Shown: positions 3,965 to 35,399 of the stretch, piece after piece
Position numbering within the stretch: the stretch's first letter is position 1
How the letters are laid out: each line of letters begins with the position of its first letter
Assembly: GCA_903821875.1 (NCBI GenBank)
Contig: CAIJMU010000025.1
Coordinates: forward strand, 1 to 35,914
DNA: 35,914 bases
Direction of reading: 5' to 3'
From: an uncultured Spirochaetota bacterium
GTDB taxonomy: Bacteria > Spirochaetota > Spirochaetia > Treponematales > Rectinemataceae
Made by a program: the position numbers and the translations under genes
The notes under the pieces: model-generated
Told to the model about the DNA's origin: nothing
Seen by the model: the letters and a program-made list of their open reading frames with translations, nothing else
The model's database searches: none

Positions 3965-4656
3965 CCGGCGTCGCCGCCTTCTGCTGCGAGTTTTCCGCCT
4001 GACATCAGAAGCCGCCGGTCAGCCCGGGTAGCCAGGCCGGCGTCGTGGGTGGCGACGATGATTGTCGTACCGAAACGCCGAGGCAGGCCAAACAGGAGTT
4101 CCCGCACCGCCTCCCCATTGACCGCGTCGAGGTTTCCCGTAGGCTCGTCTGCAAGAACCAATTGTGGTGAATTGATGAGGGCACGGGCAATGGCCGTACG
4201 TTGTCGTTCGCCTCCCGAAAGCTTGGCGGGGATGTGGTGAAGCCGGTCTCCGAGACCGAGTTCCCCGAGGATGGCTGTGGCCTTTTTCAGGGAAGGAACC
4301 CGTGGCTCGCCCCGCATCATGGCGGGGAGCGCGACATTCTCGACGGCGCTGAAATCGCGGATGAGGTAGTGGAACTGGAAGACAAAGCCCACAAAGCCTG
4401 ATCGATAGGCCGAAAGTTCCCTCTCTCCGAGGCCCTCGACCTGCCATGAGCCGGCGCGGATCTCACCCGAGTCGGCCCGGTCGAGTCCCCCAAGGATGGA
4501 CAGGAGGGTGCTCTTCCCGCTTCCACTCGCACCCATGATGGCAAGCGACTCCCTGGCTGCGACTTCGAGATCGAGGCCGACGAGGACAGCGAGGTCCTCG
4601 GCCTCGGTACGGAAATGCTTCGAAAGTCCCCGTACGGAAAGGAGCTGGTCATTCAT
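3961..4656 (-). CDS. lolD: Lipoprotein-releasing system ATP-binding protein LolD
   Basis: This is the ATPase of the LolCDE lipoprotein-release complex. With the start at ATG 4656 it has 231 residues. Walker A GASGSGKST is at 42-50, the ABC signature is LSGGERQRTAIARAL, Walker B is LVLADEPTGNLD and the switch histidine is in VATHD. The LADEPTGNLD form is typical of the LolD/MacB/FtsE branch. A longer frame reaching 4695 exists, but its extra 13 residues lie inside lolE and MNDQLLSVRGLSK is a natural N-terminus. The gene overlaps lolE by 8 bases and lolC by 4 bases, and it sits between the two permeases as expected for one complex. Confidence 0.95.
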   Translation of the reverse strand: MNDQLLSVRGLSKHFRTEAEDLAVLVGLDLEVAARESLAIMGASGSGKSTLLSILGGLDRADSGEIRAGSWQVEGLGERELSAYRSGFVGFVFQFHYLIRDFSAVENVALPAMMRGEPRVPSLKKATAILGELGLGDRLHHIPAKLSGGERQRTAIARALINSPQLVLADEPTGNLDAVNGEAVRELLFGLPRRFGTTIIVATHDAGLATRADRRLLMSGGKLAAEGGDAG

Positions 4657-5938
4657 TTCTGAGTATCTCCGAAGGCAACCTGCGTGCCGATTCATGGGAT
4701 GCCGACATGGAAGCGATGACTGCCGATGCGAGCGCTACAGCCGCGATTCCTATCGTTTCAGGCCAGAACACCGCGACGGGAACCGACTGCAGATAAAACA
4801 CAGACCCGACGGTCCCTGCCCCCTCGCCTCCCCCGAGGCCCGAGAACAGCCCCCCCACAAAGGCTGCGACCGTCGACGCAGAGGAGATCACCGCATTGAT
4901 GTTGAATACAATCGCGAGGCCGATGGCGAGGCCGACCGCCGCACCGCGAGTGCCGGTGACCAGACCGTTCCGCACGAAGATACCCCGTAGGTCCTCCGTC
5001 CGCGCTCCGAGCGCCCGAAGGACAGCGATGTCCTCGCCCCGCATCGCCACAATGCGCCGCATGGCATGATGGATGTTGACCGCAACGACCAGGAAGACAA
5101 GTCCTATCAAGAGCAACATCATCACCTTCTCCGTCCGGAGGGCACCGAAAAAAGAACGGTTATACTCACGCCATGATTCGACGCGGTACCCGCTGGCGGG
5201 GAGGAATCCCGCGAGGGCGGGAAAGGAAGCCGCGAAATCGGCGTCCCGATCCTGATGGCGCAGCTTGACGCCGAGCACGAGTTCGCCCACCGGCCTACCC
5301 TCGGCGCCGACGAACAGGGACTCTGGTGCGAGCGCCAGGGCGGAGTCGAACTGGTAGTAGCCGGACTTGAAAATGGAGCCGACTGTCAGCGAAAGCTCCC
5401 GGATGCCGATGCCATCGTCCTCGTTTCCGGTAGGCAGCACGATGTTCGCGCGCTCCGACTCCCCCAGCCCGAGCTGCCGCCCCAATTCAGAACCAATACA
5501 GATGCTATTTTCCGCCAGGGATGCGGAGCCGACCCCGAGCTCCCGTGCAAAACCCGGATCGAGCTTCTCGAAACCCTGTGGCAAAAGGAGTAGCCGGACA
5601 GGGAGGTTGCGACCGTTTTCGGCGGCCAGGAGGGCGGTAATCTCGCGGAAGGGCAGGACACTCCTGACCCCGGGCATCGAGCGGAGGCTGTCGAGCGCAG
5701 CTGCGGGAGGCACAGCATCGATCGGTAGCGTGATGCGGGCGTGGAAACTCGAGACCTCGAGGAGGGCCTGCATGTAGCCGGTCTGGAAGCCATTCATCAC
5801 GGCCATGACGACCACGAGCGTCGCGACTCCGGCGGCAATCCCGAAGGAAGCCAGCCAGGGAGACGAGGCGCCGGCAAGCCGCGAGCGCGAGGAAAACCAA
5901 CGCCCCGACACCAGGGATATCCATCCTTGCTGGCTCAC
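4649..5938 (-). CDS. lolE: Lipoprotein-releasing system permease, LolE/LolC (FtsX/MacB family)
   Basis: This is the second permease of the Lol complex. The 429-residue product starts with a cytoplasmic stretch, then a membrane segment at about 28-50 (the FGIAAGVATLVVVMAVMNGF region), a periplasmic domain of about 210 residues, and three C-terminal membrane segments. The FtsX-family part reads VNIHHAMRRIVAMRGEDIAVLRALGA, the coupling region next to the ATPase. The start ATG overlaps the stop of the upstream gene by four bases (5935-5938), and its own stop overlaps lolD. Sequence similarity to the other permease in this cluster is modest, consistent with a heterodimeric transporter. Confidence 0.87.
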   Translation of the reverse strand: MSQQGWISLVSGRWFSSRSRLAGASSPWLASFGIAAGVATLVVVMAVMNGFQTGYMQALLEVSSFHARITLPIDAVPPAAALDSLRSMPGVRSVLPFREITALLAAENGRNLPVRLLLLPQGFEKLDPGFARELGVGSASLAENSICIGSELGRQLGLGESERANIVLPTGNEDDGIGIRELSLTVGSIFKSGYYQFDSALALAPESLFVGAEGRPVGELVLGVKLRHQDRDADFAASFPALAGFLPASGYRVESWREYNRSFFGALRTEKVMMLLLIGLVFLVVAVNIHHAMRRIVAMRGEDIAVLRALGARTEDLRGIFVRNGLVTGTRGAAVGLAIGLAIVFNINAVISSASTVAAFVGGLFSGLGGGEGAGTVGSVFYLQSVPVAVFWPETIGIAAVALASAVIASMSASHESARRLPSEILRNE

Positions 5939-19570: not shown

Positions 19571-21253
19571 TCAGGACATGCCGATGATTGCCCTGACCCG
19601 CGCGATAACCACTTCCTCGATGTCCTGGGCTTCGGCCATGAGGGATGAAGCCTCCGCGCCCACACGCGCGTTAAAGGCCAGGTCCCGGATGCCTGCGAGG
19701 TTGATGAGTACGTTCAGGGAGGCGCCGATCGCCCCGGTCCGGGCCATCAGTGCACCGACACCGGCATCCGAAACCGAGTTGCTGTTGCCCTTGTCCGCAG
19801 CTTCCACACAGAGCCTCGCAGCCTCCACGCAGGCCCGGGCAGTCGCGAGGGGAACCTCGGCAGCGCGCTTGTTCGCCGCCTCGAGGGCCGCGTCGCGGGC
19901 TGCCTTCTCGGCATCAGTGGACTTTGGCATGCGGCTGGCTTCGAGGATGCCGTTGTAGGCGGAACTGTCCTCGTCGACGGCATCCAGGAGTCGCTCCTTG
20001 ACTGCCTGTGCCTTTGCCGCCATGGCGGAAAGGCCCTTCCAGTCGGACTCATAGCCTTTTTTACCGACCGTGAGATTCCCCACCATGGCGGCCAGAGCAG
20101 CGCCGAGGCTTCCAGCAAGGGCAGCCACCGAACCGCCACCCGGGGCAGGAGACTCGTTCGAGATCTCATCGACAAAGGCGGAGACCTTCATGCCTGCCAG
20201 GGGCTTCGGTCCCTGGCAGGCCCATTCCACGATCTTCTTAGAGGGATCGAAGTCGGCGACCGAGTCCAGCCCCATCGAGCGGACTGCAATCTCGACGAGT
20301 TCGAGCTGGCTCGCACCCTCACTCTTGCCGGTCCTGGCAAGAAAGTGACGCCCTGCATCGGTCAAGGGACCAAGGGGCACCATTCCGACAATCTCCGAAC
20401 CGGTCACGAGCATTCCGCGCCTCTCGGCCTCAGTCTTTACAGTCTCGAAGACCACATGGAGGGGCGTTGTGCGGTAGTTGACCAAATTGATTGAAACCTG
20501 GGCCTGCCGATAGCTGTCGATGTACCAGCCTATGGCGCGGACGTCCCGGAGAAGGCCAGGGACTTTTATTGTATTGCCAGCGGCGTCCTTCATCGTGCTG
20601 CCCTGCGGGTCCTTCGCTGCCCTACCCCCCTCCCTTACTGTCATTGCCACCTCATTGGCAAGCTTCTTGTCACGGGTGTTCAGGTTCACGTTATACGCGA
20701 TAAGAAACTCGCGGGCTCCGGTCACGGTGGCACCCCAGCGCGGGATGAACCTGGCAGGCCCGTAGTCAGGCTCCCATTCAGGCTTGCCCATTTTTTCGGG
20801 AAGCGCCTCGTATTCACCTGAGCGAATGTCCGCCAGATTCCGGCGCCCAGGGCGGGTTGCTGCGTATTCATACAAAAAGACAGGGACTCCCAATTCCTTG
20901 GATAGGGCTTCGCCAAAGCTCCGGGAGAGCTTGACGCACTCCTCCATCGAAATTCCGGAAACAGGCACGAAGGGGCACACATCAAGCGCACCCATCCGGG
21001 GATGGGCCCCAGAATGGGCTGTCATGTCAATCACGTTCCACGCCGCCCTGGCTGCAGCGAGGGCGGCGGCCAGTACAGGTTCTGGTTCGCCGACAAAGGT
21101 ATAGACAGTCCGGTTTGTATCGACGCCAGGATCGACATCGAGCAATGAAACTCCGGCGACGCCGCGCACAGCCTGGGCAATCGCCTCGACCCCCACCCTA
21201 TCCCTGCCGACAGAAAAATTGGGTACGCATTCCACTATCCTGCGATCGCTCAT
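19571..21253 (-). CDS. ftcD: Bifunctional glutamate formiminotransferase / formiminotetrahydrofolate cyclodeaminase
   Basis: FtcD moves the formimino group of N-formiminoglutamate (from histidine breakdown) to tetrahydrofolate, then releases ammonia to give methenyl-tetrahydrofolate. The 560-residue product carries both domains. Residues 1 to about 340 are the transferase, with VPNFSVGRD near the start and AHSGAHPRMGALDVCPFVPV, where His84 matches the catalytic histidine of the mammalian enzyme. Residues from about 355 are the cyclodeaminase, with NESPAPGGGSVAALAGSLGAALAAMV. The full fusion is common in animals and some bacteria, while many bacteria have separate proteins. GGAGG lies six bases before the ATG. 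No hut gene is seen within the window. Confidence 0.94.
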   Translation of the reverse strand: MSDRRIVECVPNFSVGRDRVGVEAIAQAVRGVAGVSLLDVDPGVDTNRTVYTFVGEPEPVLAAALAAARAAWNVIDMTAHSGAHPRMGALDVCPFVPVSGISMEECVKLSRSFGEALSKELGVPVFLYEYAATRPGRRNLADIRSGEYEALPEKMGKPEWEPDYGPARFIPRWGATVTGAREFLIAYNVNLNTRDKKLANEVAMTVREGGRAAKDPQGSTMKDAAGNTIKVPGLLRDVRAIGWYIDSYRQAQVSINLVNYRTTPLHVVFETVKTEAERRGMLVTGSEIVGMVPLGPLTDAGRHFLARTGKSEGASQLELVEIAVRSMGLDSVADFDPSKKIVEWACQGPKPLAGMKVSAFVDEISNESPAPGGGSVAALAGSLGAALAAMVGNLTVGKKGYESDWKGLSAMAAKAQAVKERLLDAVDEDSSAYNGILEASRMPKSTDAEKAARDAALEAANKRAAEVPLATARACVEAARLCVEAADKGNSNSVSDAGVGALMARTGAIGASLNVLINLAGIRDLAFNARVGAEASSLMAEAQDIEEVVIARVRAIIGMS

Positions 21254-21744: not shown

Positions 21745-24700
21745 ATGTTGCAATCACCGAATAAGAGGCATGTCCTTGGGGGAGTTCTGGCCATTTTCTT
21801 GAGTGCGGCGATGTCCGGTCAGGCATTGCTCCTTGACTCCGTCGATTTTGCGATGACAGGGGGGCTCCCACTAGGCGGCTACAATGAGGTCGCGAAAGCT
21901 ACCCAAGGTTGGCAGTCTGGCCTCAATTTTGTCTATAATCTGGATCGCAGCTTTGGCAGCTTCATCAGTGTGGAAAACCTTTTTTGGTACCCTGCCCAGA
22001 GCTATCTCTCCTTTGGCACTGGAATTGGCGTCCTGGGAGGTCTCACATTCAGGACTGTCGTCCTGGCTATTCCCAAGGCTGGCGAGCTGAAACTCGGCTT
22101 TAGTCTGGGTTATGGCTTCATGGCGCATGTCGTCACGGGAACCTGGACCGGTTCGACATCAACAAGCGGATTCTTTGACCAGATGGGCCTGGCCGAGGGC
22201 GAGATAACCTGGTCCTTCGACCGAAGCCCGATCAACCTCTATATCAAGCCGCGCTACCTGTTCGCGTCGGAGCAAAAGGGGTTCAGCGCCCAGGAGCTAT
22301 CGATCGGCCTTGGCCTCCGGTATATCCTGCGCAAGGATTCGATGACCAAGCTGTTCCGTGCAGTGGAATCGGTAAGCATCACATCGGTTTCCCCGACGCT
22401 CGTTGAAGGACAGTCCTTTGCCTTTGCCGCCGCAGTCGTGCCCATAGACGCGACGAATCCCGCCATCCGTTGGACCGTCGATGATCAGAAGATCGCAACC
22501 ATCGACGATTCAGGGAACCTTCACGCGCTGAAATTCGGGGATACAACGATCAGGGTGAGGAGCGTGGACGGCGAAAAAACAAATACCGTCGATGTATCAG
22601 TCAAGCTCCCCCTGCGCCAGATCGCCGACATGACAGTTCCCAGCCTGGCCACAGGAAACACTCTGGCGTCCATCACCAATCCACTGACCCTGCCCAAAAC
22701 CGCGCTGGACGGCACCCCGATAAGCTGGAAGTCTTCGGACGCAGAAATCATTGCCGACGACGGCACGGTCACCAGGCCTGCTTTTTCCGATGGGGACAAG
22801 AACCTCACGCTGAAGCTCACCACCTCCCGCGATGGACAGAGCGAAAGCAAGGAGATCAGCTTTACGGTGAAGGCCCTTCCCAAGGACGCGGCCGCAGCCC
22901 TCGATGAGGATGCAAAGGCCCTTTCGGTCGGCTACGCACAGGGCGACAGCGAAAGCTCGGTGACCGCCAACGTGCAGCTGCCCGTCAAGCTTGGAGCAGG
23001 TTCATCAGTCGAATGGGCCTCGAATTCCGAAATCATCGTTGCCGACGGCAGCGTCGCGCGACCACCCTTCAAGACCGGCGACAGCACGGTAGTCCTGACG
23101 GCGAAGGTCAAGAAAGGCGAAGCATTCGTAGATCGGCAGTTCACCCTCATAGTCAAAGCGGCGCCCATGACCCCCATGGAGTTAGTCGAACTCGATGCCA
23201 CCGGGGTTGCGATCACCTACTCAGACGGCGATACCGTTGATACAGTCACCCAGAATGTCAGCATGACGACTGCCGGTGACAATGGTTCGGTCATCATCTG
23301 GTCGTCAGATGCCCCAGGACTCGTCAATTCCTTCGGCCTCGTTACCCGCCCTGTTGGCAAGGATGGCCTGGCGAAGCTTACCGCCAGTGTCAAGAACGGC
23401 AAGGAAGCATCCAAGGATGTTGTCTTCGCGCTCACAGTTCTTGACAATTCAGTCAATGTAGACGCAGCAGCCATAGCAATAACCTTCGCGAAGGGCGATT
23501 CCGAGCAATCCGTCACAAAAAAACTGGGACTCCCCCTCAAGGGAAAGAACGGAACCGCGATATCCTGGACTTCTTCCGACGAAAAGCTCCTGCATGTGGC
23601 TGATGGTTCGGTCGTGCGGATCAACGAGGAAGACGCCCCAGTCACGCTGACAGCCCAGGTGACAAAAAACAAGCTCGTGGCATCCCTTGAGGTCCAGGTT
23701 TCCCTTGCGGCAGCCAAGGCCGAACTCGACGCCGCGGCCCTCGCCATCGGCTTCGCCACCGACGACAGCGCCGACTATGTGTCAGCCAACCTGAGTCTCC
23801 CCGCCACGGGCGAGCGAGGCTCGGCCGTCACCTGGACAAGCCTCACGCCGGCACGCATTGCCGGCGACGGAAGCGTCGTTCCTCTCCTCAACAAGGACGA
23901 GAAGGTTACGCTCCGGGCAAGCCTCTCGAACGGCCCGAGCTCCGCGATACGCGACTTTGTGGTAACTGTAAAGGACGGGGCAGTAGCAGCCGACCTGGCA
24001 GCACTCGCCCTGGGCTTCGGCAGCGGGGACAGCGACACGTCAGTGACAAAAAACATCAGCCTGCCGCTCAAGGGAGCCAATGGGACCCTGATGAGCTGGA
24101 CGAGCTCGAACACGGCCCTCCTTCCGACCCCGACTGCCGCTACAGCCGCTGACAAGGCCAAGGATGCGGTGATAGTACGCAACAACGAGAATGATGAGGG
24201 AGTTGTCCTTTCGGTCAAAGTCACGAAGGGCAATCTTCGCGAACAGTCGAGGGACTTCACCCTCGTACTCGCAGCTGCCAAGGCCGAACTCGACGCCGCG
24301 GCCCTCGCCATCGGCTTCACGACCGACGACAGCGCCGACTATGTGTCAGCCAACCTGAGCCTCCCAGCCACTGGAGAGCGAGGTTCGACCGTCACCTGGA
24401 CCAGCCTCACGCCGGCGCGCGTCGGTAGCGACGGAAGCATTGTTCCTCCCCTCAACAAGGACGAGAAGGTTACGCTCCGGGCTGCCCTTTCCAGCGGCCC
24501 GAGTTCAGCAACGAGGGACTTCGCGGTAACTGTGAAAGACGGGGCTATCGCCGCAGACCTCGCAGCCATCGCCCTCGGATTCGGCAGCGGAGATACTGAA
24601 ATGGCGGTAACACAGAAGATCGTCCTGCCCCTCAAGGGAGCCAATGGAACCACGATCACCTGGACGAGCTCCAATACAGACCTGTTCGGGAACGACGGAA

Positions 24701-25824
24701 CCATCGTGAGGACCAACGAAGCAGATGAACCCGTAACCCTGGCAGTCAAGATTTCCAAGACAGGACTCAGGGACCAGGGCAAGGAATTCCAGCTCGTGCT
24801 CGCCGCGGCTAAAGCCGAGCTTGATTCCGCAGAAACGGAAATTGGCTACGCAAGCGACGACAGCGCAACCTTTGTTACCCAGAATCTCGTGCTACCTGGC
24901 ACGGGAATACGCGGATCGACGATCAACTGGTCCTCGCTCTCAGCCAAGGCGCTCAGCGATTCTGGAGTCCTCACTCCGCCTCTTGGCCAGGACGAGAAGG
25001 TGACGCTCCGTGCCACCCTGGTTAATGGCCCAAGCCGCGCGACACGCGATTTTACGGTGGTCGCCAAGGATTACTCGGTCTTTGCCGACCTGGCAAACCT
25101 TGCCTTGACCTTCTCCCCCAGCGATTCTGAAAACCATGTCACCGCAAAGCTGGGTCTTCCCGCCGCTGGCGCGAACAAGACTAAAATCACCTGGAGCGCT
25201 GACCAGCCCGACCTGGTCGCATCCAATGGCGACGTGAAACGCCCCGAGGGCAGGGATGTTAAAGTCACCCTCAAGGCTGTGATCAGCAAGGCAGACCGAA
25301 GCACCGAAAAGACCTTCACCGCGAATGTCATAGATGTGACGATGTTCAGGATAACGACAAGTATAGCAAAACAGATCGCCGACAAGAAGCTCCAGAACGT
25401 AAGCGTCATGGAGACACCCCAGGGTATTTCCATAACGGCTGGCGGATTGGCCTTCGGCGCAGATTCGGGTGACATCAACAAGGACGTCGCAGTCAAGCTG
25501 GATCTCCTGGGCGTCATACTCCAGAACCTCGACAAGAACGGCGATCTCCGTAATGCCAAGATCGTGATAGAGGGGCATTCGGCAGTGGGAAGCTCCGGAA
25601 AAACGGACAATTCCGATGCCCCGAAATCCGACATGACCGTGTCCAAACTGCGAGCCGAGGGAGTAATGAAGTATTTCATCAGCCGCAACTATGTTTCAGC
25701 AGCGGTGATTGCCTTTGTCGGCTACGGCAGCACGAGGCCGATCGCAGAAGCCAAGGACGCAAAGAACCGCCGTGTCGAGATCATCATCGTAAAGGACAAC
25801 GCTGTTGAGGAAGGTTCGAAATGA
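21745..25824 (+). CDS. Outer-membrane protein: beta-barrel, BIG2, ten aBig-type repeats, OmpA-like C-terminus
   Basis: The 1359-residue product starts at ATG 21745 (AGGAG five bases upstream) with a signal peptide (about 1-27). Residues 28-196 alternate aromatic and polar residues and end in LGLRYIL, as in a small outer-membrane barrel. A BIG2 Ig-like domain follows (207-290, with WTVDDQKIATIDDSG). Then come ten repeats of about 90 residues of the aBig_2 type, each with a GDS, an NLSLP strand, GSTITW and a VTLTA strand. Residues 1200-1352 are OmpA-like, with VGYGSTRP and NRRVEIII, likely for peptidoglycan contact. It probably anchors in the outer membrane and links it to the wall. A frame back to 21553 exists but lacks a signal peptide. 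The stop overlaps the next gene. Confidence 0.82.
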   Translation: MLQSPNKRHVLGGVLAIFLSAAMSGQALLLDSVDFAMTGGLPLGGYNEVAKATQGWQSGLNFVYNLDRSFGSFISVENLFWYPAQSYLSFGTGIGVLGGLTFRTVVLAIPKAGELKLGFSLGYGFMAHVVTGTWTGSTSTSGFFDQMGLAEGEITWSFDRSPINLYIKPRYLFASEQKGFSAQELSIGLGLRYILRKDSMTKLFRAVESVSITSVSPTLVEGQSFAFAAAVVPIDATNPAIRWTVDDQKIATIDDSGNLHALKFGDTTIRVRSVDGEKTNTVDVSVKLPLRQIADMTVPSLATGNTLASITNPLTLPKTALDGTPISWKSSDAEIIADDGTVTRPAFSDGDKNLTLKLTTSRDGQSESKEISFTVKALPKDAAAALDEDAKALSVGYAQGDSESSVTANVQLPVKLGAGSSVEWASNSEIIVADGSVARPPFKTGDSTVVLTAKVKKGEAFVDRQFTLIVKAAPMTPMELVELDATGVAITYSDGDTVDTVTQNVSMTTAGDNGSVIIWSSDAPGLVNSFGLVTRPVGKDGLAKLTASVKNGKEASKDVVFALTVLDNSVNVDAAAIAITFAKGDSEQSVTKKLGLPLKGKNGTAISWTSSDEKLLHVADGSVVRINEEDAPVTLTAQVTKNKLVASLEVQVSLAAAKAELDAAALAIGFATDDSADYVSANLSLPATGERGSAVTWTSLTPARIAGDGSVVPLLNKDEKVTLRASLSNGPSSAIRDFVVTVKDGAVAADLAALALGFGSGDSDTSVTKNISLPLKGANGTLMSWTSSNTALLPTPTAATAADKAKDAVIVRNNENDEGVVLSVKVTKGNLREQSRDFTLVLAAAKAELDAAALAIGFTTDDSADYVSANLSLPATGERGSTVTWTSLTPARVGSDGSIVPPLNKDEKVTLRAALSSGPSSATRDFAVTVKDGAIAADLAAIALGFGSGDTEMAVTQKIVLPLKGANGTTITWTSSNTDLFGNDGTIVRTNEADEPVTLAVKISKTGLRDQGKEFQLVLAAAKAELDSAETEIGYASDDSATFVTQNLVLPGTGIRGSTINWSSLSAKALSDSGVLTPPLGQDEKVTLRATLVNGPSRATRDFTVVAKDYSVFADLANLALTFSPSDSENHVTAKLGLPAAGANKTKITWSADQPDLVASNGDVKRPEGRDVKVTLKAVISKADRSTEKTFTANVIDVTMFRITTSIAKQIADKKLQNVSVMETPQGISITAGGLAFGADSGDINKDVAVKLDLLGVILQNLDKNGDLRNAKIVIEGHSAVGSSGKTDNSDAPKSDMTVSKLRAEGVMKYFISRNYVSAAVIAFVGYGSTRPIAEAKDAKNRRVEIIIVKDNAVEEGSK
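23713..25338 (+). repeat. Three tandem two-domain repeat units inside the OmpA/aBig gene
   Basis: Units begin at 23713, 24277 and 24808 with a phrase encoding AKAELD; the periods are 564 and 531 bases. Each unit codes for two aBig-type domains. The first two units share long near-identical DNA (for example CTATGTGTCAGCCAACCTGAG in both), so the duplication is recent. The 33-base difference is an insertion encoding a Pro/Thr/Ala-rich loop (TPTAATAADKAK) in the first unit. The third unit is more diverged. Confidence 0.8.
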
Positions 25825-28800
25825 GGAACAAAGGAAGAACGATGACGCGGCAATCGCTCGCGCTCGGCACCCTCGCCTTCCTGGCGGTTGGCTGCAGTGA
25901 CATGATCTATTCGCTCCGGCCACTGACGCTGGACACGAACAAGGCGACGGCGGCGGGGGAGCAGATCGAGTCGAACATTGCCTGGGCGAAAATGAATAAC
26001 AGGAACAATGTCTACGAAGATTTCCTGATGCCAGAGCTTTTGTCGGGATCCACGATCACCTGGACCTCGCCCGACGGTTCGGTCTCGACCAACGGGCCCG
26101 AGGCCCTGGTCGAAAGACCGACGAACGCAAACAAGTATGTAACCCTGACCGCCACGATCAGTTATGGGATTGCAACCGTCACCAAAACAATCAAAGTCGT
26201 AGTTAGGAAGATTCCTGCTGCTCCAGGAACCGATCCCGTGGTCGACCAGGGGATTGTCGACGAAGCCAAGGCATCCCTCGCCGCCGGGGGAAGCGCCTTC
26301 GGCTTCGCTCCTGGACAGGATTTTTTCTCGGCCACCAGTTCGATTGCCTTTCCGAGTACCGGCCCCGACGGCACGTCCATAGCCTGGGAAACAAGCGACC
26401 CTTCGGTCATCGGTCCTGATGGAACGCTGGTTCGCCCCCCTGCAGGGAGCGGCAGCAAGACGGTCATAGTTACCTCTAAGATCAGGCGCGGCAACGTGAT
26501 CGTTACTGAAACCTATACGATAATAGTACCCGAAGCCCCAGCCGTTCCCGCCGAAGCCGTCGCAGCTGACACAGCGAGTCTCTCGCCGGTCTTTGAAGGC
26601 AGCGACACCCTGAGCCATGTGACTGCTGATCTCGACCTTCCTGCCTTTGGGGCTTCCGGCTCGGTAATTAAATGGACTTCAAGCAATCCGACAGTACTCG
26701 GCTCCGACGGGCAGGTTACCAGGCCTACGGATGCCGCCGCTACAGTCATCCTCAGCGCAGAAATTACAAAGGACGGAGTCACGGAGACCAAGTCCTTTAC
26801 GGTGCTGGTCGCAGCCCTCCCTGCTGACCCCGTACTCGTACTCCGCAGAGATAAGACCAACCTCAATCCACTGTGGAAGGCAGGCGATTCGCCCGGGTCG
26901 GTGACTGGCCCCATGGAGCTTCCGACCTCAGGGCCAGGCGGCAGCACCATCACCTGGGTCGCAACACCTACTGGCGTCATCGACCCACTCACCGGTAACG
27001 TCATCAGGAGTTCGACCGATACACCCGTAACCCTCACAGCGACTATTAGCTATGGGAAAGCGCCCAACACCAAGACTGATACCAAGACCTTCGACGTTTC
27101 GGTCCTGAAAATCCCGACCGACCCAGCGGTAGCTGCAAAGGAAGACGCAGCAAGCATCGCGATCGGCTATCCCCAGGGGGATTCGCGCTTCAGCATCACC
27201 GATGACATCAAGCTCCCGACCATCGGCGACGATGGCTCGATTATCACATGGACTTCGTCCGCACCCGGCCTGATAGGAATCGGCGGAACGGTCACCAGGC
27301 CGAGCTACACTGCTGGCGACAAGACGGTCACGCTTACTGCCGTGGTCCAGAAGGGGAGCGAGACTGTAATCAGGACCTTCACCGTCATCGTGAGTGCGCT
27401 ACCAAAATCTGCAGCCGATGTGGTCGCGGCAGACAAGGCCAGCCTCGAAATCGGCTTTGTTCCTGGCGACACAGGAGGTACGGGAGGCAAGGTCACCGGA
27501 GCACTGAGCCTGCCGACCACTGGTCCTGCGGGAAGTACCATCACGTGGGTACAGACTAGCCCCACCCCCGCGACAACTCCGATCATCGACACCGATCCAG
27601 TAGGTGGACTCGGAGGCATCACCAAGCCGACAACGGCGACGACGGTTACCCTGACGGCGACGATCAGCTCCGGAACGGGGGCCGACCTAAAGACCGAGAC
27701 CAAGACTTTTACCTTTGCTGTTGAACCAGCGCCGACGGCTTCGGCCGATATCGTCGCTCAGGACGCGGCAGTCCTCGAACCGGTCTTTGGCACTGGGGAA
27801 ACCAGTACATCGGTGACAAAAAACATCAGCCTGCCGACGACCGGTGTCAACAACTCAACGATCACCTGGGCGGCCAGCCCCGCCGGTGTCATTGCGACAC
27901 CCTCGGGTACGGTCACAAGGCCGAGCCTTGCCAGCGGCGATGCCATAGTCGTCCTGACCGCCACTATCCTAAGCGGAACTGCGCCTAACGTCGTAAGTAC
28001 TACCAAGAACTTTACAGTCAAGGTAGAAGCCATCGATCCCTCGACGCCCGCAGAAAAGGCGCTCGCCGACAAGGCCGCTACAGTACTCGGCTTCGATAGT
28101 GGGGATGGAACCATCCCAACAGGTGGTACCTACCCCGTCGTCACCGGCCCCCTCACCCTTCCCGCCATCGGGCCCTATGGCTCGACCATCACCTGGGTGC
28201 AGACTACGCCAGCTACACCGGTCATTGTGTACACCGATCCAGGACTGCCGACGACCGGCTTTGTCAAACGGCCAGATGCCGACACGACAGTAGCCCTCAC
28301 GGCGACCATTACATCCGGTACGGGCGCTGACAAAAAGACCGAGACCAAGACGATCACTGTCACCGTAACTGCACCGAACCCGGTCTATACTCCCGCCCAG
28401 AAAATAGCCGAGGATGCCGTGATGGCAGCTCCGACCTTTGCAAGTAGCGATGGCACGAACGCTGTCACGAACAACTTCACGCTGCCGAGTGTGGGTCCCT
28501 ATGGCACGAGCATCAGCTGGGCAGTAAGCAAGACCGCGAGCAGCGACACGAAGGTGCTGGACTTGCCGACCAGCAATCCAACCGCGCCGGCACCCTGGGA
28601 CATCACAGTGACCAGGCCAGTAATTGGACAGGCTGATGTCTATGTCATCGTGACGCCGACCTATAGCAATGGCGGCACAACGAAGACCGGAGCGCCGATC
28701 TACCTCAAGGTCAAAGCCCTGGGATCGACGGGAACGGTGGCTCTGACCATCAATTTTACAGCGCCCAGTGCGCCAACCTTCAGCATTACACCGACTGCGG

Positions 28801-29030
28801 CAATCAAGCTGAACAAGTATGCAGCAGCGCCTGAGTCCATAGCTGTCGACGCTGCGAGCGGCTTTACGAGTTACCAATGGGTCGTCAATGGTGCGGTTGT
28901 TTCGACGACCGCCGCAGCAACGATCTCGAGCGTAGGGCTCCCCACAGGACCCAACAAGGCTGCCCTGTTCGCCATGAAAGATGGCGTTCTCTGGGAAGCA
29001 GATTTCACCTTCACGGTGGTGGAGGAATGA
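25821..29030 (+). CDS. Predicted lipoprotein with nine aBig-type Ig-like repeats
   Basis: The 1069-residue product has a lipoprotein signal (LGTLAFLAVGC, lipidated Cys25). Nine Ig-like units of about 95-115 residues follow, each with a strand ending in LPTTGP, then STITW, a TRP turn and a TLTATI strand, and closing with a Pro-ended linker such as VSALPKS. The last 100 residues are a different module (INFTAPSAPTFSI, SYQWVVNGAVVS, DGVLWEADFTFTV) that recurs in the next gene. Units 6 and 8 are closest to each other, again suggesting two-domain duplication. The start overlaps the previous stop (ATGA), with AGGAAGG upstream; ATG 25842 is an alternative. Likely a surface-exposed filamentous lipoprotein; ligand unknown. 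Confidence 0.8.
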   Translation: MRNKGRTMTRQSLALGTLAFLAVGCSDMIYSLRPLTLDTNKATAAGEQIESNIAWAKMNNRNNVYEDFLMPELLSGSTITWTSPDGSVSTNGPEALVERPTNANKYVTLTATISYGIATVTKTIKVVVRKIPAAPGTDPVVDQGIVDEAKASLAAGGSAFGFAPGQDFFSATSSIAFPSTGPDGTSIAWETSDPSVIGPDGTLVRPPAGSGSKTVIVTSKIRRGNVIVTETYTIIVPEAPAVPAEAVAADTASLSPVFEGSDTLSHVTADLDLPAFGASGSVIKWTSSNPTVLGSDGQVTRPTDAAATVILSAEITKDGVTETKSFTVLVAALPADPVLVLRRDKTNLNPLWKAGDSPGSVTGPMELPTSGPGGSTITWVATPTGVIDPLTGNVIRSSTDTPVTLTATISYGKAPNTKTDTKTFDVSVLKIPTDPAVAAKEDAASIAIGYPQGDSRFSITDDIKLPTIGDDGSIITWTSSAPGLIGIGGTVTRPSYTAGDKTVTLTAVVQKGSETVIRTFTVIVSALPKSAADVVAADKASLEIGFVPGDTGGTGGKVTGALSLPTTGPAGSTITWVQTSPTPATTPIIDTDPVGGLGGITKPTTATTVTLTATISSGTGADLKTETKTFTFAVEPAPTASADIVAQDAAVLEPVFGTGETSTSVTKNISLPTTGVNNSTITWAASPAGVIATPSGTVTRPSLASGDAIVVLTATILSGTAPNVVSTTKNFTVKVEAIDPSTPAEKALADKAATVLGFDSGDGTIPTGGTYPVVTGPLTLPAIGPYGSTITWVQTTPATPVIVYTDPGLPTTGFVKRPDADTTVALTATITSGTGADKKTETKTITVTVTAPNPVYTPAQKIAEDAVMAAPTFASSDGTNAVTNNFTLPSVGPYGTSISWAVSKTASSDTKVLDLPTSNPTAPAPWDITVTRPVIGQADVYVIVTPTYSNGGTTKTGAPIYLKVKALGSTGTVALTINFTAPSAPTFSITPTAAIKLNKYAAAPESIAVDAASGFTSYQWVVNGAVVSTTAAATISSVGLPTGPNKAALFAMKDGVLWEADFTFTVVEE

Positions 29031-32000
29031 GGAACATGAAACAGCGAAACAACCCTGGCATCACCGCGATCATCCTTGCAGCCTTTGCGCTTGGGGGATT
29101 TCTAGCGTCCTGTGCCGGCCCCTTTGGAGGCAGCAGTGCCTTGGGGGATACGACCCGGATCGACAACCAGGCGACCCTGCCGGGCATGGGAGCTATCAGG
29201 CTCATCCTCCCCGCAACGGGCGCTTCGCGTGGCACCATCATTCCAGCCATCCTCGCCAGCGCCCATCACTACAAGATTACCCTGACCCCAAGCACGGGTC
29301 CGGCCGAGGACTTTGAAAACGTGACGAGTAGCCCCTGGACCAACGCCAACGTTACGCCAGGGGATTACAGCCTGATCGTCGAAGCCTACAACTCCGCTTC
29401 GACAAAGAGCGGCAGCTCTGATTCGATTTCAATCACCGTAACCAGCGGTGTGACGACGACGACGAGCATCGCGATAGCAGCCACCGGCACCCAATCCATG
29501 ACGGGGACCGGGACCCTGGGCACGACCATTTCCTGGCCTGTCACTGCGGTCGATTCGGTGACCGTCACCCTCTACAAGCAATCCGAGTTCCTCCAAGCCG
29601 GAGCCACTGCGGTTCCCCTGGGAACGCTTACTCCCGATTACACGACCGGCAAGCTCCCCATCTCCACGAGCCTTCCGAGCGGGAACTACGTCATGGTGGT
29701 CCAGCTTTCGAAGGGCGGAGTGCTCTACCCGCCCCTCTACGAGGCTGTGCAGATCTATGATGGATCCACGAGCGATAGCACGGGTACGGGCACGGGCTCG
29801 ACCACCACAACGGGCCTCAGCGTCACGGCGACCGAACTCGGAACGGCGCCGACTGCGCCGACGGGGCTGTTTGCCACAAAGGCTGCCGACGGGAAGGTGA
29901 CACTCTACTGGACAGACGCTTCGAACACCGAAACCGGATTCAAGGTCTACAAGGATGGAGTGCTCCAGACCCCGAGCCTCTCGGCTCTGGCAACTTCCTG
30001 GACTGATACAAGTACGACAGCCGCAAGCACGGGATACACAGTGGCTTCGTACAACGGGCTCGGGGAAACGATCTCCACGGCACTCGCCCTCACGGCTGTA
30101 ACCGGAATCACGGTACCGACTTCCGTCACCGTGGCGGGCGACGCCACGCGCATTCCCGTAACCTTCGCACCGACTACTGCCACCTTCCAGGACATCACCT
30201 GGACTTCGAGCGATCCGACGATTGCGACAGTCGATGCCTCGGGCAATGTCACGCCACTCAAGCCAGGTTCGGTCACTCTCACGGCGACCCCGCGGGGCGG
30301 TGGCACGGCGAAGACCATCCCGGTCACCGTTCCGACCTCGCCGACCTATGTCGGACTCAAGTTCGAGCTGCCCGCTAGTTCCACTTCCCTCAAGGACAAT
30401 CTCGCCGGTACCACTCCCCTCATCAACAAAGGGACAAGCCCCACCGATGTCATCACCTTCATGCCGCCCGAGGGCGTGGATTCCTACACCTGGTCCATCG
30501 ACGGCGGTACCGACACTTCCGCAAACCCGGGGACGCTGAGTCTTGATTCTGGAACCTTGACCGGGGGAACCGTTTCGACAAGTCCCGCGGGTACTTCCCA
30601 CACTGTCACGATCACCGTATGGAAGGATGGAACCAAGTATACGAAGACCGAAACCTTCATAGTACAGAATGATTCAAGTCCGATCACCACGGCCCAGACA
30701 GCCACCACGATCGCAAGCATCCTCAATGCAGACGATAGCTCGTCCGGCACGACACCCAAGACCATCACGGGCGACCTGAACCTTCCGAGCACCGGTCCGG
30801 GTGGTACCACGATAACCTGGGCCATGAACCCCGTGACCTACACCGATCCCAGCCAGGGAACGATCCAGCTCGTGGACGCCCAGGGCCACGTGACCAGGCC
30901 GAGCACTACAGCACAAACAGTCACCCTCACCGCGACCTTTTCAGGCGAGCCGATATCCAATGGGGTACCGACCACGACCACCCAGACCTACCAGGTATCG
31001 GTAAAACCAATTAGTACGGATACCAGCACGACCTGCGTCGAGACCGATCTCGCCACCATCATTCCCATCAGGCTGAGCACCGGTGATGCCCTGCCGACTT
31101 CGAGTCCGACAGTCTCCGGCCCGCTCGATCTGCCGAGCACCGGACCCTCAGGCACGGACATCACCTGGACGGCAAGCCCGGCCGGGATATTGGCTCCCGA
31201 CGGCACCCTCACGCGACCGGCGGTCGATACCACGGTCACCCTCACCGCGAGCGTGAGCAAGGGAACGAATCCCGTCATCACCGAGACCGTAACGACGACA
31301 GTCACGGTGCTCGCCAGGCCGACAACGACGATCGCCCAGGTAACCGAGGACGCCAAGGTCCTCGAACCCGGCTATCCCGATGGCACGGGCCCGCTTGTTC
31401 TCGACAGGAATATCGAGCTTCCGACCACCGGTCCGAACGGTTCACCCATCACCTGGACCGTGCTCAAGGCGGACGGAACCCCAGCTTCCTATCCCTCAAC
31501 CTCTCCGATCGATCCCTCGACCGGCAAGGTAACACTCCCAACGACGGGCACCTCGGTGATTCTTGTCGCGACCATAGGCGACGGCACTCCGCAGGTCGTA
31601 AAAACCTTCGATGTCACGGTCAAGGCCAAGGATACGACTACGCCAGCGACCAGCGACTCTCTTGCCCTCGAAATCGGCTTCCAGCCGGGTGACAATCCAG
31701 GCACCGTCACCGGCAATCTGACCCTCCCGACTGCCGGACCCAATGGCTCCACCATCACCTGGGCGGCCAGCCCCACGGTCGCAGCCGGCGGGCCGATCAA
31801 CCCGAGTACGGGTACGGTGACAAGACCGACAACAACGGCGCCGACCGATACGACGGTAACCCTTACCGCCACCATCACGCCGCCGACGGGAACACCGGTA
31901 ACCAAGACCTATGTCGTCACGGTACCCAGCAAGCCCCAGGTCGACGTGACTACCGCAACCCTCACCACCACTCAAATCACGCAATTGGTCGATTTCCAGC

Positions 32001-33004
32001 CCGGTGAGGGAAGCGGGACTCCACCTAGCATCAAGACGCTTTTTGATCTGCCGACGCTTGGCCCCGATGGCACGACGATCACCTGGACCTTCCCGAATCC
32101 CACGGCCTACAGCCCGACATCGACGACCTCGGTGCTGACCATTCCGTCAGCTCCCGGCCTTACCCTTGGAAGCGGAGATCCGATTCCAGTTATCGTCACC
32201 AGGCCGACGGTGGATACAACCGTGACACTGACGGCTACTGTCATCAAGAACGGCGTACCCGTGGTTATCAGCTATCCGGTGCTGATACCTGCCAAACCAG
32301 CCACCGATACAGCCTGCGTGACCGAGGATGCCACGCCAAGCACTATTTTAAAGGAAATTGTACTTTCCCCGGGCGATACGACAAGCACGACGACAACAGG
32401 TGGCGTGACGACCACAACTACCACGGTTACAGGCAACTTTGTCCTGCCCAGCACGGGAGCCGATGGCTCGACCATAGCCTGGACACCGACCAACACAGAA
32501 AATCCCGATCAAACAAGCATCACAGTCTGCGGCTTTCCACCAAGCCCGGGAAGCTATAGCTCCGGTCTACCCATCATCGTCACCCGGCCTGCCGCGGACA
32601 CAGTTGTGACCTTCACGGGCACTGTCAGCAAGGGAACATCGCCAGTCGTAACCCAGCCGGTCATCATCAAGGTGACGGTGAAGGGAACGGCAGCGACCAG
32701 TTCAAATGGATCGCTAACTGCGACAGTGTCCTTCGCGAACCCGAGCCAGCCGACCTTTAGCCTGGATGGGAATAACTCAATCATCTATAAGAGTTCGGCT
32801 ACGCCGACCTCGCTCACAGTCACCGCGACCTCAACGTTTGCGTCCTATACCTGGAAAGTCGATGGAGTGACACAAACAGTTACGACCAAGACCATCACGG
32901 TAAATGCCTCTGATTACGCGATTGGAAAGCATAGAATCTGGCTCTCAATACTCTCGGGCACCTATGTATATGATGCCTATGTGACCTTCGAAGTCAGGTA
33001 CTAA
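29027..33004 (+). CDS. Predicted lipoprotein with Fn3, BIG2 and six aBig-type repeats
   Basis: The 1325-residue product has lipobox FLASC (Cys29), then a Thr/Ser-rich N-terminal domain related to that of the next gene. It continues with a fibronectin III-like domain (APTAPTGLFATKAADGKVTL onward) and a BIG2 domain (WTSSDPTIATVDASGNVTPL). A module with YTWSIDGG comes next, followed by six aBig-type repeats and a terminal copy of the same module (YTWKVDGV, ending FEVRY). Threonine is extremely common, including a run of Thr codons near 32395-32430. The ATG overlaps the previous stop; ATG 29036 is an alternative with similar support. A longer frame from 28877 lies inside the preceding gene and is rejected. 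Likely surface lipoprotein of unknown binding. Confidence 0.8.
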   Translation: MRNMKQRNNPGITAIILAAFALGGFLASCAGPFGGSSALGDTTRIDNQATLPGMGAIRLILPATGASRGTIIPAILASAHHYKITLTPSTGPAEDFENVTSSPWTNANVTPGDYSLIVEAYNSASTKSGSSDSISITVTSGVTTTTSIAIAATGTQSMTGTGTLGTTISWPVTAVDSVTVTLYKQSEFLQAGATAVPLGTLTPDYTTGKLPISTSLPSGNYVMVVQLSKGGVLYPPLYEAVQIYDGSTSDSTGTGTGSTTTTGLSVTATELGTAPTAPTGLFATKAADGKVTLYWTDASNTETGFKVYKDGVLQTPSLSALATSWTDTSTTAASTGYTVASYNGLGETISTALALTAVTGITVPTSVTVAGDATRIPVTFAPTTATFQDITWTSSDPTIATVDASGNVTPLKPGSVTLTATPRGGGTAKTIPVTVPTSPTYVGLKFELPASSTSLKDNLAGTTPLINKGTSPTDVITFMPPEGVDSYTWSIDGGTDTSANPGTLSLDSGTLTGGTVSTSPAGTSHTVTITVWKDGTKYTKTETFIVQNDSSPITTAQTATTIASILNADDSSSGTTPKTITGDLNLPSTGPGGTTITWAMNPVTYTDPSQGTIQLVDAQGHVTRPSTTAQTVTLTATFSGEPISNGVPTTTTQTYQVSVKPISTDTSTTCVETDLATIIPIRLSTGDALPTSSPTVSGPLDLPSTGPSGTDITWTASPAGILAPDGTLTRPAVDTTVTLTASVSKGTNPVITETVTTTVTVLARPTTTIAQVTEDAKVLEPGYPDGTGPLVLDRNIELPTTGPNGSPITWTVLKADGTPASYPSTSPIDPSTGKVTLPTTGTSVILVATIGDGTPQVVKTFDVTVKAKDTTTPATSDSLALEIGFQPGDNPGTVTGNLTLPTAGPNGSTITWAASPTVAAGGPINPSTGTVTRPTTTAPTDTTVTLTATITPPTGTPVTKTYVVTVPSKPQVDVTTATLTTTQITQLVDFQPGEGSGTPPSIKTLFDLPTLGPDGTTITWTFPNPTAYSPTSTTSVLTIPSAPGLTLGSGDPIPVIVTRPTVDTTVTLTATVIKNGVPVVISYPVLIPAKPATDTACVTEDATPSTILKEIVLSPGDTTSTTTTGGVTTTTTTVTGNFVLPSTGADGSTIAWTPTNTENPDQTSITVCGFPPSPGSYSSGLPIIVTRPAADTVVTFTGTVSKGTSPVVTQPVIIKVTVKGTAATSSNGSLTATVSFANPSQPTFSLDGNNSIIYKSSATPTSLTVTATSTFASYTWKVDGVTQTVTTKTITVNASDYAIGKHRIWLSILSGTYVYDAYVTFEVRY

Positions 33005-33011
33005 GGGGAAT

Positions 33012-35399
33012 ATGATGAATATGCACAACTCAAACCGATTCCCTCGCATCCTCGGACTTTTCGCTGTCGCGCTTATCGGCTTGCTATTCGCGAACGCCTG
33101 CACCCTGCTCAATGTTTGGGCAAAGCCCGGAACAGGAAATGTCGCGATCACGGTCGTAAACGAAAGCGCAAGCAGGACAATCGCGCCAACGGCACCGACT
33201 ATCGCATCCTACATGGTCCGGCTTTCCAGGACAGGCTCAGTCGACGTACTCGGCTACTCGACGACAAGCACGATTACGGCTTCTTCGGTTCCCACTGGTA
33301 CCTGGAATCTTGTGGTCGAGGCCTATCTCAACACCGGCTCTGTTGCCACGCCTCCCACGCAACTGCTCGGGAGAAGTAATGTGGTAAAGATCGATGTTGC
33401 CGCAGGTTCTACACCAAGCACCCAGACGGTCAGCTTTGCACCAACCGAGAACGGTACCGGTACGCTCAATGTCACCTTTAACTGGACCACGATCGATGCC
33501 GATTTTAGTTCGCTCAGCCTTGCCAGGCTTTCCGACAACAAGGACATCACGCTAGCAAGTGGCGTAACAAACGCAGCTGGCACTGCAAGCATGAATCTTT
33601 CCGGCGTCAGAAGCGCGATTTCAGATCCATATATCGTCAAACTTCGCCTCAAGAAAAACGGTGTCGATATGGCGCCCTTCGACGAAATTGCCTATGTCTG
33701 CGACAATCAGACCTCCTCGAAGACCATAACCATAGCCTCCGCAGATCTCGACTCGGCGCCAAGCGCGCCAACAGGGCTGACGGCTTCGATCACTGCAGGC
33801 AGTAACACAACCATCAATCTCTCCTGGACCAAGAGCGCCGTGAACGCTGCCAACTACATAGCGTACGTCGGTGGTACGGCACGCGATTCGACTCTTGCCG
33901 GCAACGCAAGCAGCTATTCGGTCACGAGCAGCACGACTGATACTAGTTTCGCAGTAGCGTCAAAGAACGCCTTTGGGACGAGCAGTCAGGCGACATACGC
34001 CATGGTTCGTGTCACGGGGATTGGTCTGAGTTCTAGCTCTGCGACTATTGGTGTCGGTGGAACAGCGAAACCAACGGCGACCCTGACCACATTAAGCGGT
34101 ACCGCGACCATAACCACCGTTGACTGGAGCAGCAACGACGCCACCAAAGCGACAGTCGACTCCACTGGCTTGATCACGGCAGTTGCTGCGGGTCCTGCCA
34201 CTATCACCGCCAAGGCCCGCGATGGCGGGACTACCGCAACGTTCGCCGCAACGGTAGTTTCGACTGGAAACATCAAGGGGCAGGTAGCCTTGCCCGACGC
34301 ATCGGCCCTTGCAGGCGTTACGGTGAGTGCAACAGCCGGAGTCGCTATATACAGTACGACTACAGCCGCCGACGGAAGCTTTACTCTAGCGGTGCCAGCT
34401 GGAACCTGGACCGTCAGTTTCAGTAAGTCGACGTACAACAGCACGAGCTATCCCGATATTTCGGTCACAGCCGGGGCTAATACAGTAATCGAATCGGTCA
34501 TGACCTGGCTTTCATCCGCAAGCGGCAACGCGGGCATCTCAGGCACGATCTTTGATGCGTCCACATCAGGAGCTAAGGTTGGCGGCGCAACCATCAATTT
34601 CCGCGCTGGCATCAATACTACTACTGGGACTATTGTGAAAACAGCAACCAGCTCCTCGACTGCGGGCACCACACTCGGTACCTATTCCTGGGATGGAAGG
34701 AATTCTTCGAGTGTTTACTCGCCTGGTGCTTATACCGCTGAAGTTATCAAAACCGGCTATGTTACCTTGTACTTCACCGTCAATGTCGTCCCGGGAAGCA
34801 GTACACGGAGCGGGCAAGACACGACTATGTCACAGACTATTTCCACCGGCAATGTGACACGTTTCGTCCTCACCTGGAATTCAAGTCCAGCGGATCTCGA
34901 TATCAAGGCAATGTTCCCGAGTGGAGCAACAACCAAGACCTTCCCCGATGGATATGCCGGCTACAGTGCAGCACCCTTTGGGTCTGTCGCGGATGTGAAT
35001 TCTGACTATGCCAAGATCGAAAGCGATTGCACTACTGGCAGTGGACCAGAAGCTGTATCCATAGGGCAACATAGCGGAATCTATGGAACCACCGGAAAGA
35101 CCATCACTATCGCTGCACTGAACTATAGCCATTGGGACTGGTTCTATGATGCATCCAATGGAGCTGCGAGTCCCAAGAACGGCACAGAGCCAATAGCAAT
35201 GAAAGCATCAGGGGCGAAACTTACCGTTTATCGCAGCAATAGCGCAGGCACGACGACTACCCTGATTGGAACCTTCTATGTTCCAGCCATCACGAGCGGC
35301 ACGACGAACAACGACACATGGAATATCTGCACGATGGATACATCCGGCACCCTCGTACTCGTCGGTACTATTACAGATTCTGGAGCTTATGTACCATGA
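33012..35399 (+). CDS. Predicted lipoprotein with Fn3, BIG2, carboxypeptidase-regulatory-like and YfaP-like domains
   Basis: The 795-residue product has lipobox FANAC (Cys30) and an N-terminal domain like that of the preceding gene. It has a fibronectin III-like domain (SAPSAPTGLTASI to ASKNAFGTSSQ) and a BIG2 domain (WSSNDATKATVDSTGLITAV). A carboxypeptidase-regulatory-like domain follows (NIKGQVALPDASALAGVTVS to SFTLAVPAGTWTVSFSK), then a second, looser one (ISGTIFDASTSGAKVGGATI). The C-terminal part has FVLTWNSSPADLDIKAMFP, like the YfaP/DUF2135 family. There are no aBig repeats. It starts seven bases after the previous stop, with GGGG just upstream; the adjacent ATG 33015 is equally possible. 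It ends the four-gene operon. It may cap or decorate the surface structure; this is inference. Confidence 0.78.
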   Translation: MMNMHNSNRFPRILGLFAVALIGLLFANACTLLNVWAKPGTGNVAITVVNESASRTIAPTAPTIASYMVRLSRTGSVDVLGYSTTSTITASSVPTGTWNLVVEAYLNTGSVATPPTQLLGRSNVVKIDVAAGSTPSTQTVSFAPTENGTGTLNVTFNWTTIDADFSSLSLARLSDNKDITLASGVTNAAGTASMNLSGVRSAISDPYIVKLRLKKNGVDMAPFDEIAYVCDNQTSSKTITIASADLDSAPSAPTGLTASITAGSNTTINLSWTKSAVNAANYIAYVGGTARDSTLAGNASSYSVTSSTTDTSFAVASKNAFGTSSQATYAMVRVTGIGLSSSSATIGVGGTAKPTATLTTLSGTATITTVDWSSNDATKATVDSTGLITAVAAGPATITAKARDGGTTATFAATVVSTGNIKGQVALPDASALAGVTVSATAGVAIYSTTTAADGSFTLAVPAGTWTVSFSKSTYNSTSYPDISVTAGANTVIESVMTWLSSASGNAGISGTIFDASTSGAKVGGATINFRAGINTTTGTIVKTATSSSTAGTTLGTYSWDGRNSSSVYSPGAYTAEVIKTGYVTLYFTVNVVPGSSTRSGQDTTMSQTISTGNVTRFVLTWNSSPADLDIKAMFPSGATTKTFPDGYAGYSAAPFGSVADVNSDYAKIESDCTTGSGPEAVSIGQHSGIYGTTGKTITIAALNYSHWDWFYDASNGAASPKNGTEPIAMKASGAKLTVYRSNSAGTTTTLIGTFYVPAITSGTTNNDTWNICTMDTSGTLVLVGTITDSGAYVP

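Follow-up and report, generated by a model that had tools for sequence, protein, structure and literature searches.

A spirochete four-gene operon that appears to enlarge a recurrent pairing of an outer-membrane barrel with a lipoprotein

What kind of envelope structure would be built by four coupled genes, the first encoding a predicted outer-membrane barrel and the other three encoding long repeat lipoproteins? We addressed this question in an uncultured Spirochaetota bacterium, using as the window (the whole stretch of DNA analyzed) a complete contig, C25, of 35,914 bases from a draft genome of 4.68 Mb in 193 contigs. The first-pass annotation had described four plus-strand genes at 21745-35399, joined by overlaps or a 7-base gap and encoding 4548 residues in sum, and the open reading frames agreed exactly: the gene 1/2 and gene 2/3 junctions each overlap by 4 bases, and 7 bases separate genes 3 and 4 (Table 1). 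Every open reading frame on the opposite strand of the operon region is far shorter than genes 1 to 4. We took 21745, rather than the in-frame ATG at 21553, as the gene 1 start because its signal peptide begins at 21745, with AGGAG just upstream. Since the window is the entire contig, only about 0.5 kb of sequence lies between the operon and a contig end. Promoter and terminator scans returned promoter-like sites no more often than expected by chance. We found no tandem repeats at the DNA level, and the Ig repeats are therefore old at that level.

Two other features of the same contig were observed. A pair of LolC/LolE-type permease genes for lipoprotein release (2609-5938, minus strand), which fall below the NCBIfam cut-off, are probably housekeeping genes. 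A gene fusing glutamate formimidoyltransferase with methenyltetrahydrofolate cyclohydrolase (19571-21253, minus strand) is divergent from the operon.

Table 1. Positions of the operon genes, their domains, and the paralogous genes on contig C4 of the same genome
Feature	Position	Strand	Description	Basis
Gene 1 (W1)	21745..25824	+	1359 aa, barrel-Ig-OmpA tether	ORF, translation, Pfam
Gene 1 outer-membrane barrel, residues 29-198	21829..22338	+	Eight-stranded	Profiles A1/A2, AlphaFold, Foldseek
Gene 1 BIG2 domain	22360..22590	+		PF02368, E 8e-12
Gene 1 aBig_2 repeats	22645..25332	+	Ten repeats; probably periplasmic spacer	PF20578; topology inferred from barrel and OmpA end
Gene 1 OmpA domain, residues 1237-1342	25453..25770	+	Peptidoglycan-binding	PF00691, E 2e-10; motif survey
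Gene 2 (W2)	25821..29030	+	1069 aa, cognate aBig lipoprotein	ORF, Pfam (nine aBig_2 stretches)
Gene 2 mature N terminus	25893..25916	+	CSDMIYSL, barrel-partner motif	Motif survey of partner lipoproteins
Gene 2 C-terminal domain	28710..29027	+	About 105 aa, W-x-[VL]-[DN]-G type	BLAST
Gene 3 (W3)	29027..33004	+	1325-aa lipoprotein: N-terminal domain, BIG2, aBig_2 repeats, shared C-terminal domain	
Gene 4 (W4)	33012..35399	+	795-aa lipoprotein: N-terminal domain, BIG2, CarboxypepD_reg, tip domain	
Gene 4 tip region	34512..35396	+	Unnamed; likeness to YfaP seen by eye only	Relatives in 5 other genomes
C4 gene 1	L039	-	757 aa, barrel and FlgD-type Ig repeats	
C4 gene 2	L039	-	976 aa, aBig_2 lipoprotein	
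C4 gene 3	L039	-	799-aa lipoprotein, five Flg_new repeats	
C4 gene 4	L039	-	1332-aa lipoprotein, Flg_new repeats and long C-terminal region without Pfam match	

Pfam searches matched gene 1 to BIG2, ten aBig_2 repeats (E = 1e-194), and a terminal OmpA domain (E = 2e-10), and the 170 residues ahead of BIG2 form a barrel of an unnamed family with the motif GYGxxxH...[FY]xDQ, for which no Pfam entry matched. When the window barrel was aligned with eight relatives for AlphaFold, the model had eight strands, with a pLDDT of about 60-84 in the barrel and 58.6 overall, the BIG2 part being poorly modeled; a Sphaerochaeta-type relative also gave eight barrel strands, at an overall pLDDT of 86. The top PDB matches of the barrel models in Foldseek were NspA (TMt 0.78), OmpA, Ail, OprF, OmpX, and OmpW. 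Domain profiles and structure predictions thus show gene 1 as an outer-membrane barrel with a putative wall-binding end, in agreement with the barrel, ten aBig-type repeats, and OmpA-like terminus that had been proposed for it.

In OmpA-type eight-stranded barrels, both chain ends are periplasmic. Because of this topology, and because the OmpA domain is expected to bind the wall, the gene 1 stalk is most likely periplasmic, and the first-pass reading of a surface stalk is not supported. The combination of barrel, Ig chain, and OmpA domain also proved less unusual than had been supposed: proteins of about 550 aa in other families of the class join a barrel of this family (profile A2, below) to FlgD/CHU_C-type Ig and OmpA domains (L139, L141, L145, and L146), proteins of about 1400 aa with FlgD_ig and OmpA domains occur throughout the order, and one genome (G469) carries a reversed fusion, OmpA and then barrel, with a CSDM lipoprotein as the next gene. 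That barrel-OmpA fusions occur elsewhere is a further reason for placing the Ig chain of gene 1 in the periplasm. Taken with the models, gene 1 is most likely an OmpA-like wall tether that carries a barrel and has a periplasmic Ig stalk rather than a surface fiber. Laid straight, its eleven Ig-type domains would span an estimated 40 nm or so, which is long for a periplasm, so the chain may be bent; a deep periplasm around the flagella would be one possible reason for so long an arm.

We also observed that the OmpA domain of gene 1 has GHSA at the usual GHTD site, with the Asp replaced and the Arg kept. Across the OmpA domains collected from the class (L010-L037, L070-L079, L090, L121-L146, and window positions 25453-25770), the wall-binding Asp of GHTD is nearly always replaced (GHTA in 20, GHAN in 8, GHSA in 4, and others, with one GHAD) and the Arg is kept. 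Some spirochete walls contain ornithine in place of diaminopimelate, and replacement of the Asp may be linked to an ornithine-type wall.

Genes 2, 3, and 4 each begin with a lipoprotein signal peptide, with the Cys at residue 25, 29, and 30, respectively. Pfam assigned nine aBig_2 stretches to gene 2 (E = 3e-153), BIG2 and six aBig_2 repeats to gene 3 (E = 1e-56), and BIG2 and CarboxypepD_reg to gene 4, and genes 1, 2, and 3 passed the PF20578 (aBig_2) cut-off. Thus, the lipoprotein signals and the aBig and BIG2 modules expected in genes 2 to 4 were recovered, as were profile matches to PF20578, BIG2, and OmpA in the operon, whereas the predicted Fn3 and YfaP-like modules were not: Pfam called no Fn3 in the window genes (fn3 was called in a paralog, E = 8e-5), and DUF2135 (YfaP) matched neither gene 4, even at E = 10, nor the relatives of gene 4 at E = 0.01. 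The end domain of gene 4 sits behind CarboxypepD_reg in other Spirochaetia too, and its search against sequences of solved structures gave one weak match that we took as chance. The C-terminal domain of gene 2 is common to gene 3 and, by BLAST, has a weaker likeness to lipoprotein C termini on contig C51 of the same genome.

To what extent these genes belong together could be judged from their neighborhoods in other spirochetes. A barrel profile made from two close sequences (A1) found eight further genomes, and in all seven whose neighborhoods were read, a lipoprotein beginning CSDMM, CSDMI, CSNML, or similar lay directly downstream of the barrel. A second profile (A2), made from ten sequences with invariant Pro15, Gly28, Gly97, His101, Gln119, Pro142, and Gly163, detected the barrel family in 31 genera of the class; 54 of the 395 genomes sampled carried it. 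There were 55 distinct barrels, and 47 of the 54 that were testable had a lipoprotein directly downstream, typically after about 9 bases; the paired barrels fall into about ten families (f1, f3, f9, f13, f19, f21, f22, f63, f71, and f76) with a barrel identity near 20%. Where gene neighborhoods were complete, the next gene encoded a lipoprotein for 24 of 26 barrels versus 17 of 139 other genes (Fisher P = 8e-16, a value inflated by relatedness, yet the pairing spans families whose barrels are near 20% identical), and the two apparent misses were CSNF and CSDM lipoproteins overlooked by the detector. OmpA-fused barrels of families f74, f76, and f79 often had no lipoprotein directly downstream (L138, L139, L140, L143, and L146), and several of the OmpA-fused barrels without such a partner had one nearby on the other strand. 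As judged from sequence and gene order, the four-gene operon is an enlarged form of a barrel-lipoprotein pair that recurs across spirochetes. The earlier proposal of one coupled assembly, here of the cell envelope, is supported. Like the first-pass annotation, which recognized no described system in this gene set, we found none in the literature searched; the pair itself was not described in the open-access literature searched, and as subscription literature was outside that scope, a description may exist.

Two further observations concern individual barrel loci. In one genome (G092; L131:6375-7808, minus strand), a barrel of the family is joined directly to a module that is probably Lcl_C (its E value of 7e-5 misses the Pfam cut-off) and that takes the place of the downstream CSDM lipoprotein, an arrangement hard to reconcile with periplasmic barrel ends unless the module works inside. 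In Sphaerochaeta-type loci (L097, L155-L160, and L162), response-regulator-like and sensor-like membrane genes, identified by eye, usually lie upstream of the pair, so expression of the barrel and lipoprotein there may be regulated.

The operon as a whole is much rarer than the pair. We found the exact four-gene set in one genome only, the 193-contig draft, together with one paralogous operon there, and a whole-operon comparison (P0001 against 59 relatives) gave matches to OmpA and BIG2 only. The question of whether the genes are conserved together elsewhere therefore has a divided answer: the barrel-lipoprotein pair recurs and a paralogous operon exists, but the exact four genes occur only here. 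This collinear paralog, on contig C4, consists of four overlapping genes (Table 1), and the N-terminal regions of the lipoproteins match by rank, gene 3 with C4 gene 3 (E = 4e-13) and gene 4 with C4 gene 4 (E = 1e-10). By BLAST, C termini from C4, C11, and C51 form one related set. C4 also holds a shorter copy, a lone 199-aa barrel with 32% identity to that of gene 1 (E = 3e-25) and, after it, an aBig_2 lipoprotein cut off by the contig end, and pairs of an aBig lipoprotein with an N-domain lipoprotein occur twice on C51 and on C11. Use of aBig_2 as a guide to the operon was abandoned, as this domain is patchy across the order (25 of 197 genomes) and a poor predictor of synteny.

A second barrel type was found in the host genome: the 757-aa C4 protein and a 231-aa open reading frame on C16 share a small barrel (46% identical), and each is directly followed by an aBig lipoprotein starting CRSPYMPQP. 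These two cases from one genome suggest that the barrel type and the sequence after the Cys go together. Outside the host genome, a search for this second type gave no paired relative, and its weak matches were other small barrels without an adjoining lipoprotein.

Other lipoprotein loci were also noted. Contigs C11, C16, C51, C54, C80, C106, and C147 of the host genome (G000; L040-L047) encode many more aBig lipoproteins, mostly without a barrel; several start C[TSR]xxx...DTRTxxQKAL, and their exchangeable ends include FGE-sulfatase, NHL, Vps10-type, and kelch-like modules. In another genome of the same genus (G001; L077:4417-10266, minus strand), an operon of three lipoproteins has no barrel gene in front; its N-terminal domains resemble those of genes 3 and 4 by eye, with BIG2 in the first lipoprotein and FGE-sulfatase in the second. 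A third genome (G111; L065, L066, and L068) has an array of lipoproteins of about 900-1030 aa, six on its contig C1 and one on its C21, whose complete starts begin CEGPxGP and whose ends are near-identical, and which looks like a variable gene family.

The lipoproteins that follow barrels of the gene 1 family share a short mature start. CS[DN][MLF] was present in 42 of 47 partner lipoproteins, and Ser followed the Cys in 46 of 47; partner selection had favored CS[DN] candidates, but the outcome was no different in an earlier pass that applied no such preference. In the loci of more than 5 kb, CS[DN][MLFIV] began 28 lipoproteins, every one in a barrel locus and adjoining the barrel or a few genes from it, and the same start was found in none of the 72 other lipoproteins, these counts referring to the collected loci rather than to whole proteomes. 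Within the window, only gene 2 carries the motif; gene 3 starts CAGPFGG and gene 4 starts CTLLNVW. Conservation thus identifies the motif-bearing lipoprotein as the partner of the barrel. Beyond the first 30 residues, the partners formed about eleven groups that shared no detectable similarity with one another, in a set that included the window protein twice and two nonpartner lipoproteins. Their modules include Lcl_C, NHL, LRR_5, IgGFc_binding, VWA, FG-GAP, PKD, YDG/MBG, Flg_new, InlB, and Ig/cadherin, and by their domain matches the partner ectodomains are unrelated to one another and of extracellular or ligand-binding type. Because the short motif is kept while the remaining protein is exchanged, these data point to the motif acting together with the barrel, and they suggest that the pair is a dedicated means by which large modular proteins are held or displayed on the cell surface.

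Considering these findings together, we propose a model, to which we give somewhat better than an even chance of being right, where the operon encodes an expanded two-component outer-membrane unit composed of a barrel-wall tether, a docked cognate surface lipoprotein, and two added lipoproteins. Gene 1 would insert its eight-stranded OmpA-type barrel in the outer membrane, extend its BIG2 and aBig chain inward, and grip the wall with its OmpA domain. The segment of gene 2 after the lipid anchor would dock on or in this barrel, which would fix the gene 2 Ig stalk at the surface and probably help to expose it. From the module types of the partners, the lipoprotein would probably be oriented outward, with ligands or surfaces as its targets, possibly in an adhesive role. 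Because genes 3 and 4 are both without the motif, their place is a guess; they may extend the stalk or cap or tip it, with gene 4 as a probable ligand-binding end. A broader and more tentative proposal, which we think has less than an even chance of holding, is that spirochetes possess a display system in which an eight-stranded barrel recognizes one partner lipoprotein by the four to eight residues that immediately follow its lipid anchor. Different barrel types would read different codes (CS[DN]M or CRSPYMPQP), so any ectodomain could be mounted, and the window would represent the version whose barrel is bolted to the wall by a long Ig-OmpA arm.

An eight-stranded barrel would force the gene 1 stalk and OmpA end to the wall side, a geometry that would also suit an alternative where all four proteins are periplasmic and build a scaffold from outer membrane to wall, spacing or stiffening an envelope with periplasmic flagella, the lipoproteins lying on the inner leaflet beside the barrel. 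The three flagellin genes of the host genome are consistent with this alternative, as are the many spirochete lipoproteins that are periplasmic, as described for Treponema pallidum (PMC7521688). We nonetheless consider it unlikely, as partners elsewhere end in outside-binding modules (Lcl_C, LRR_5, IgGFc_binding, VWA, and InlB) and a periplasm could not easily accommodate chains of 1400-1950 residues. A second alternative starts from the abundance of aBig lipoproteins without a barrel in the host genome and from the patchiness of aBig_2 across the order: the locus could be an ordinary cluster of repeat lipoproteins, its barrel a small structural protein and its motif a local sorting signal spread by whole-cassette transfer. 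The absence of the motif from all 72 other lipoproteins of the loci, its occurrence with about ten barrel families near 20% identical, and its position ahead of unrelated ectodomains make this distinctly improbable. Least probable of all is a sensor in the manner of RcsF, whose lipidated start passes the OmpA barrel (PMC4942254), with the start outside, the chain threading the barrel, and the remainder periplasmic: the motif does occupy exactly the residues expected at or in the barrel, but no signaling partner is encoded nearby, the large and varied ectodomains resemble binding modules rather than a signaling domain, and folded repeats often follow the Cys after only a short linker.

Under the favored model of a barrel with a docked surface lipoprotein, the locus bears on how spirochetes select lipoproteins for the surface, a long-standing question for which no Slam-type machine was described in the spirochete literature examined. 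The barrel-lipoprotein pair, with its marker after the anchor, provides a concrete and testable candidate for such selection, and the motif offers a rule by which partner lipoproteins could be predicted from sequence in spirochetes, both environmental and cultured, including Sphaerochaeta and relatives.

Among known systems, the inverse autotransporters intimin and invasin resemble gene 1 in having a barrel and then a long Ig-type chain. Their barrel has 12 strands and their passenger is at the surface, and this type was ruled out because the gene 1 barrel has eight strands and its chain ends in an OmpA wall-binding domain. SusCD of Bacteroidota likewise consists of a barrel and a lipoprotein that are encoded together and function jointly; SusC is a 22-stranded TonB-dependent transporter, whereas no barrel of that type occurs here. 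Nearest in gene layout is Slam (DUF560, or type 11 secretion), where a barrel gene lies beside a dedicated lipoprotein gene, as in 47 of 54 cases here. Among Slam genes examined, 185 of 353 adjoin a lipoprotein gene; the Slam barrel has 14 strands and carries a TPR domain at its N terminus, and its lipoproteins share an eight-stranded soluble barrel fold (PMC5449769). In contrast, neither TPR nor DUF560 was matched here, the window barrel has eight strands, and the partner ectodomains are unrelated; a Slam reading was ruled out by strand number and domains. Nearest in barrel type is the OmpA-RcsF complex of enterobacteria, where a lipoprotein cooperates with an eight-stranded barrel of the OmpA type. 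RcsF acts as a small sensor of stress and its gene is not known to lie beside ompA, whereas the pair described here is co-encoded and has a large, modular lipoprotein. Finally, the OmpA/OprF family supplies the best fold matches and, like gene 1, has a small barrel followed by a C-terminal PF00691 domain; gene 1 differs in that its barrel belongs to a family without a Pfam entry and is separated from the wall-binding domain by about 1000 residues of BIG2 and aBig repeats.
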